Source: Burkholderiaceae bacterium (GTDB lineage: Bacteria; Pseudomonadota; Gammaproteobacteria; Burkholderiales; Burkholderiaceae_E). Taken from it: 64,000 bases of DNA. A program made the position numbers and the translations under genes. The stretch is from contig JAMLIR010000016.1 of the NCBI GenBank assembly GCA_023954045.1, positions 1 to 64,000 on the forward strand, in the 5' to 3' direction. This document shows, piece after piece, positions 23,030 through 24,956 of this stretch; positions within the stretch are counted from its first letter, which is position 1; every line of letters starts with the position of its first letter. The notes beneath the pieces were generated by a model. The model saw only the letters and a program-made list of their open reading frames with translations. It did not search any database and was not told the origin of the DNA.

Positions 23030-23512
23030 TCAGGGCCGCGCGCAACGGCCCGTGGCCGGATCGAACATCACCGGCCAGGCCTGCTCGTAGACGCCCGGCG
23101 TGCAGTGCTTCGCGCAGCCCGCGTGCCCCATCGTGATCCGGCGCGGATCCTGCCAGACCATCAGCTTGCAGCCGCTGCCGTCGCGCTCGACCAGCTCGAC
23201 GTGCGGCCGGCTCCGGACCTGCCGGAACGATCCGAGCTCGAAGCCGCAGCTGCCGCGGCGGCCGATCCTCATCTGCCATGACAGCTGCTGCACCTGGCCG
23301 TCGCGCACGACGAGCCGCGCGTCCTCGTGAAAGCCGTCCTCCTCGGTCTCGTTGCAGTAGCCGTCCAGGTTGATCGGCCGATCCGCGATCGGGGCCGGGG
23401 CCGACGGCGTCGGGCGACCCGGAGTCGGCGCGCCCGGCACCATGAACCCGCAGGCGCCGAGCACGGCGGCGAGCGCGACCAGCGCCGCGCCACGAAGCGA
23501 TCGCGCGATCAC
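23030..23512 (-). CDS. Putative lipoprotein of unknown function
   Basis: 160 residues from a GTG at 23510-23512 with GGAGG 5-6 bases upstream; the GTG overlaps the gatA stop by 4 bases. A signal peptide with lipobox LGAC (about residue 20) predicts a membrane-anchored lipoprotein. A Pro/Thr-rich linker follows, then a domain with six further cysteines ([42 protein letters not shown]) that could form three disulfides. No family recognised. Its coupling to gatA is odd because it has no known role in tRNA amidation. Confidence 0.75.
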
Positions 23513-24956
23513 GACGGCCTCCGCAAGTGCCAGTCGGTGGCCTGCTGGAACCGATGCGCGGCATTGAGCACCCGCGCCTCGTCGAACCAGCGGCCGATCA
23601 GCTGCAGCCCGATCGGCCGCCCGCCGCGCCCGAAGCCCGCCGGCACCGACATGCCCGGCAGCCCCGCGAGCGAGGCCGGCAGCGTGTAGACGTCGGCGAG
23701 GTAGTTCGCGACCGGGTCGTCGACGATCGCCCCGATGTCCCAGGCCACGGTCGGCGCCACCGGCCCGGCGATCAGGTCCACCGACTCGAATGCGCGGCGG
23801 AAGTCGTCGGCGATCAGGCGGCGCAGCTTCTGCGCCTGCAGGTAGTACGCGTCGTAGTAGCCGTGCGACAGCACGTAGGTGCCCACCAGCACGCGCCGCT
23901 TCCGTAGTCGATCGCCGACTTGCGCGCGGGGTAGTCGAGCATGGCGCGCAGGCGCGGCGACAGCGGCTGCGTGGTATCGGCGAGGTCGGCGGCATATTCG
24001 GCCGCGAGTTCGGCTTCCATGATGAGCAACGCGGCGCGGCGCGTACGCGTGACGTCGAAGTCGGAGAAGTCCACCGCCACGCGCTCGCCCAGCGGCGCGG
24101 CCAGGCGCGCGAACGCATGCTCGAACAGCGCCTGCACCGGCGCCTCCACGCCCAGCGCCGGCAGGTCGCGCACGAAGGCGCTGCGCAGCTGGCCGGGCTG
24201 CCAGTCGGGAATCGCCAGCGGCACGCGCCGGCGCCGCGAGCGCGGGTCGGCCGGGTCGTGGCGCGCCAGCACCTGCAGCACCACCGCGAGGTCCTCGGCC
24301 GCGCGCGCGAGGATGCCCACGCAGTCGAGCCGGCGCGCGGCGGGCACCAGCCCGCGCGTGGAAATCTCGCCATGGGTGGGCTTGAGCGCGAACACGCCGC
24401 AATGGCTCGCCGGGATGCGCACCGAGCCGAGCGTGTCGCTGCCCAGTGCGAAGCTGCACTGCCCCGCCGCCACCGCCGCGGCCGACCCGCCCGAGGAGCC
24501 CCCCGCGATCGCGGCGGTATCCCACGGGTTGCGCACCGGCCCGAAATGGCTGTTCTCGTTGGCCGAGCCCATCGCGAACTCGTCGCAGTTGGTCTTGCCG
24601 AGGCAGACCGCGCCGGCCGCCGCGAGCCGCTCCACGACCGTGGCGTCGAACGGGCTGCGGTAGTCGGCCAGCATCCGGGAACCGGCGGTGCTGCGCCAGC
24701 CGCGGGTCACGAAGATGTCCTTGTGGGCGAGCGGCACGCCGAGCAGCGGACCCCGCTCGCCGGCGGCCAGCCGATCGTCGGCGGCGCGTGCCTGCGCCAG
24801 CGTGAGCTCGGGCTGCACGTCGATGAAGGCGTTGAGCCCGCTCGCCTCGATGCGCGCGAGGAAATGGCGCGCCAGCTCCACCGCGGAGAATTCGCCGGCG
24901 GCCAGCCCGGCCGCGAGCGCGGCGACGCCGCGCCGCTCGATCGGGGCCTGGCTCAT
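23509..24956 (-). pseudogene. gatA: Mosaic, frameshifted gatA (tRNA amidotransferase subunit A)
   Basis: Position between gatC and gatB identifies gatA, but the reading frame breaks near 23901-23909. Codons 1-160 look like Burkholderiales GatA: catalytic Lys in [17 protein letters not shown], then [17 protein letters not shown] and the [11 protein letters not shown]er loop. The next 200 codons resemble another amidase: [12 protein letters not shown] instead of GatA's TDTGGSIRQP, then [18 protein letters not shown] and [14 protein letters not shown]. After the break the second frame is plain GatA again: [19 protein letters not shown] ... [14 protein letters not shown] ... FQQATDWH. As given it yields a chimera truncated at 380 residues (stop at 23814). 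Gene conversion, an assembly chimera, or base errors are all possible. Confidence 0.8.

Follow-up and report, generated by a model that had tools for sequence, protein, structure and literature searches.

In the deposited sequence of this Burkholderiaceae bin, gatA is a mosaic, and most likely no cell carries it in that form. The window that we analysed comprises the first 64,000 bases of contig C8 (93,139 bases), one of the 50 contigs of a 4.02-Mb bin (G000) listed at 97.16% completeness and 3.82% contamination. The broken gatA is probably a patchwork of near-identical pieces from three bacteria, an artefact rather than an evolved hybrid gene. Judging from the sequence comparisons, the whole stretch from about 20644 to 26283 would be a chimera that arose in metagenome assembly or polishing, a reading to which we give a probability of roughly 0.92. 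A sequence-only reading had described gatA as a GatA/other amidase/GatA mosaic. Alignment, profiles and source identities bore this out, and the patch turned out to be wider than gatA, running through gatB, gatC and mreB.

Pieces of the patch and their sources

On the minus strand of the window, the gene order is gatC, gatA, a small ORF and gatB, and the GatC and GatB models matched the neighbours of gatA, as in a gatC-gatA-gatB neighbourhood. Further along the window, a stretch of about 6.5 kb (13411-19938) had no counterpart at the same place in the same-genus genome G005, where its flanks lie about 30 bases apart; judging by their translations, its frames presumably encode a TRAP-type transporter and a dehydratase.

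DNA searches covered positions 12000-31900 of the window in 12 genomes and 31800-51700 in four genomes. Adjacent pieces of the patch were near-identical to three outside sources, against a background difference of about 9-26% outside the patch (Table 1). Such near-identity of pieces to different taxa is expected of a misassembly chimera. The sources were C36, a second contig of the same bin; G022, a genome from another genus of the same family; and L059 (QUBV01000062.1), on a contig titled Lysobacterales bacterium isolate PRO2. Consequently gatC and gatB of the window derive from different sources, and the two GatA ends of gatA from two different source organisms. The main texts of PMC5460018 and PMC7358590, both of which use the name PRO2, do not contain the string QUBV, and we claim no habitat for the isolate.

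Table 1. Pieces, junctions and associated features of the patch (window coordinates)
Feature	Position	Strand	Evidence
C36-like piece: gatB, small ORF, gatA 3' end, region upstream of gatB	20644..23902	- (the three genes)	5 mismatches, gapless, in 3259 bases vs G000:C36
Lysobacterales-like piece: middle of a non-GatA amidase replacing the gatA middle	23903..24507	-	4 mismatches in 605 bases vs L059
G022-like piece: gatA 5' part, gatC, mreB 5' part	24487..25992	- (gatA, gatC); + (mreB)	11 differences in 1506 positions vs G022:C99
Second C36-like piece, within mreB	25979..26283	+	305 bases, 0 mismatches vs C36
Junction 1, in the GGSSGGS-coding stretch	24487..24507	-	21 nt common to L059 and G022
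Junction 2	23902..23903	-	no base common to C36 and L059
Junction 3, inside mreB	25979..25992	+	14 nt common to G022 and C36
One-base frameshift splitting mreB (25638-26650)	25909..25913	+	one base fewer than G022 and C36
gatC-gatA intergenic repeat, 126 bases	24957..25082	-	five places in G022, one (itself) in G000

Just before the first C36-like piece (19946-20643), C36 differed from the window by 62 mismatches in 698 bases. After the second one, mismatches restarted at 26284, and the bins from 26500 on were 85-89% alike. C36 and G022 were 74-82% alike in four aligned blocks. Compared with G005 in 500-base bins, the window was 58-78% alike at 24000-25999 and 82-94% in all other bins of 19938-31900. 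Among the matches listed of at least 1 kb, self aside, none exceeded 92% except that of C36 (98% over 19946-23902). Also among the matches listed, G022 reached 92% over 24369-26999, a span longer than its near-identical core, and at most 83% in rows of more than 500 bases outside the patch; one 1.2-kb row of G002, within the genus, reached 92%.

The repeat between gatC and gatA provided an independent marker. Of seven other genomes of the genus, six had no match to it and G004 had a single weak one of 26 nt. This distribution indicated that the repeat in the G022-like piece belongs to a family from a G022-like genome. The copies in G022 are dispersed over contigs C99, C45, C51, C40 and C62, with 87-100% identity over 34-126 bases. 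Six of the 11 differences between the G022-like piece and G022 cluster within 31 bases (24621-24651). These six found no match in any relative compared over the whole stretch, which counts against the chimera reading.

The amidase frame of L059 continues beyond the junction of the window, and G022:C99 carries one continuous GatA frame. Judged by such frames and alignments, the window is the mosaic and the source sequences themselves are coherent.

Family assignment, frames and junctions

From its start at 24956, the gatA frame first resembles GatA and then another amidase; the amidase frame is left after about 23907, and the last ~130 GatA codons are open in another frame. The gatA model TIGR00132 matched the N piece with profile positions 6-149 and the C piece with positions 343-465. 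The whole 380-aa frame scored 271.6 bits, below the cut-off of 481.1, with the C piece in another frame. Hence no continuous frame attained the curated score. Taken alone, the N piece had PRK07488 as its top model (151.6 bits), narrowly over gatA (151.1). Given this near-tie, the GatA identity of the N piece rests on its 81% match to the gatA of G022 and on the gatC-gatA-gatB order. For the middle piece, PRK09201 scored 104.0 and gatA 99.6. Scores this close mean that family models alone separate these pieces poorly; sequence identities do so. The earlier view that both ends are specific to GatA thus held insofar as the profile matched both, with the reservation of the near-tie for the N piece, and it had missed that the ends come from two organisms.

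The motif TDTGGS[IV]RQP was present in all five other aligned GatA proteins (C36 and four relatives), and the window has a different 12-residue stretch instead. All three non-GatA motifs named from the sequence belong to the foreign middle, and the frame of L059 contains them too. In sum, the window gene is like GatA (TIGR00132), the Asp-tRNA(Asn)/Glu-tRNA(Gln) amidotransferase subunit, in both end pieces and in the gatC-gatA-gatB order, but unlike it in the foreign middle, the out-of-frame end and the score under the family cut-off.

As for the junctions, the 5' one had been located at 24455-24505 and the 3' one at 23901-23909, and the GatA end had been noted to lose the frame there. Alignment to the sources put both at the places given in Table 1 and confirmed the frame loss. 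Junction 2 falls at an equivalent place of both amidases, one base short, which accounts for the frameshift in gatA. In mreB, the MreB_Mbl profile matched with positions 2-87 before the frameshift and 92-325 after it, in different frames. This frameshift (~25909) lies inside the G022-like piece, about 70 bases before junction 3. Two core genes, gatA and mreB, are therefore broken within 2.1 kb. In a frameshift census of the contig based on the open frames of G005, several frame changes were gene borders or antisense frames, and one involved a CoA transferase and other pieces; no background rate was derived from it.

The second gatA and the donor amidase

The sequence-only reading had also considered gene conversion, with a second gatA or the donor amidase to be searched for in the genome. 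PF01425 matched the bin at seven places. The two pieces of the window gatA account for two of these, and C36 carries one of the remaining five. On this 9902-base contig, GatA (485 aa), GatB (497 aa) and MreB (347 aa) are intact, and there is a gatC match of 60% over 93 aa. Its alignment with G005 is collinear, with 86.6% identity across 9571 columns and 82-94% in each 500-base bin. Positions 1-455, at the left end of C36, match neither G005 nor the window, and both match from about 456-464 on. Thus, an intact second gatA does exist in the bin. Outside the patch, however, C36 and the contig of the window are about 9-15% different, and C36 looks, from its sequence, like another species' copy. 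The bin is redundant at two places, C36 against C8 and C33 against C1. In C33, positions 1-8488 (8488 bases) duplicate a part of C1 with 99.4% identity, as a second strain would.

A protein query with the middle piece returned 38 loci, with L059 first. Over 185 aa the middle was 99% identical to L059, and it was 88% and 84% identical to L060 and L061, from Dokdonella MAGs. Full-length L060 reached no NCBIfam cut-off among the 25 rows listed out of 26; the best score in these was that of PRK08186 (272.4 of 487), and gatA obtained 265.1 of 481.1. The source of the middle piece of gatA is a Dokdonella-like Lysobacterales amidase (L059, with relatives L060 and L061), and not a GatA.

Within its own genome, the only full match of the amidase piece by DNA was itself. 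Across this genome and 60 relatives, DNA searches yielded short matches only: 37 of the 61 genomes (own included) had some match at E <= 0.001, and the best one outside the own genome was 83% over 56-59 nt. At the protein level, among 369 genomes of the class (own included), the best match outside the own genome was 64%. So the search recovered a second gatA on C36, but no donor amidase elsewhere in the genome by DNA; gene conversion inside a single genome would call for a donor elsewhere in it, and the bin holds a partner for the C36-like piece, whereas DNA searches gave none for the amidase piece. A literature search showed no mention of gatA gene conversion in its listing.

Origin of the patch

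Three near-identical outside sources in about 5.6 kb, two broken core genes, an overlap-free join and a redundant bin together make a chimera the simplest explanation, and so the assembly-chimera option already raised from the sequence gained support. The organism's own sequence would have been missing or tangled at this place. The contig may then have been carried across it with DNA of other organisms, namely a species of the same genus (C36), a G022-like member of a different genus in the family and a bacterium of the Lysobacterales, with the source switching at equivalent places of conserved genes. We infer an in silico origin of the joins, source organisms that were part of the sampled community, and an intact gatCAB in the organism itself.

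Further observations count against an assembly chimera. The window is without any N, so its joins are unmarked by a scaffolding gap. C8 and C36 are exactly identical over stretches of 1105 and 1495 bases, and a plain short-read graph seldom yields two contigs with identity over kilobases. Assembly by a k-mer graph also requires overlap at each join, and junction 2 has none. According to PMC12108083, a gene is flagged as chimeric, possibly through misassembly, if different parts of it align to different taxa and have a small overlap in common. PMC7111523 describes scaffolds that combine two organisms as rare, which counts against the chimera reading. Compared with what these papers describe, the window is similar in that gene parts align to different taxa, and it differs in having three sources and several joins in about 5.6 kb. 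A small stretch aligning to both sources is present at two joins (21 nt and 14 nt) and absent at the third.

A possibility was that serial recombination really took place in a genome with two gatCAB-mre regions, the one on C36 being functional and the C8 copy, overwritten by DNA of co-resident bacteria, a pseudogene region. The intact second gatA in the same bin would fit, as would junctions at equivalent places of homologous genes, two of three with 14-21 nt shared, and the C36-like tract, taken by itself, might stem from true exchange between two congeneric species. However, this requires several recent, near-identical and adjacent imports, one of them cross-order, one join lacks any shared base, both gatA and mreB are broken, and C36, which is short and redundant, aligns collinearly with the corresponding chromosomal place in G005. 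We therefore consider it very improbable. About equally improbable would be a living bacterium in which, of two gatCAB-mreB regions, one recently imported DNA from two or three co-resident taxa, including a cross-order gatA insertion with almost no homology at one end.

The origin might also be mixed, the C36-like tract (20644-23902) reflecting true recombination between two species and only 23903-25992 being misassembled. As a matter of fact, this tract is in frame, its five mismatches are scattered and it breaks no gene by itself. Yet it directly adjoins a foreign piece, and the second C36-identical tract on the far side suggests one bridged patch, which leaves this explanation a very slim chance. 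The least probable explanation, a lineage-specific GatA only appearing mosaic, had in its favour that all parts belong to the amidase-signature superfamily, and was rejected since the GatA of C36 and of four relatives have the usual GatA middle with its ordinary motifs, and since the middle piece in the window is 99% identical to a non-GatA amidase from a Lysobacterales MAG.

Under the chimera reading, a clear multi-source chimera would sit in a bin whose listed completeness is 97% and whose listed contamination is below 4%. Unless flagged, it would be taken for a core translation gene hybridised across orders, gatA, gatC, gatB and mreB would fall among the wrong taxa in marker-gene trees, and its chimeric proteins would enter databases. 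If the mosaic were real, it would mean current gene flow between orders into a normally essential gene.
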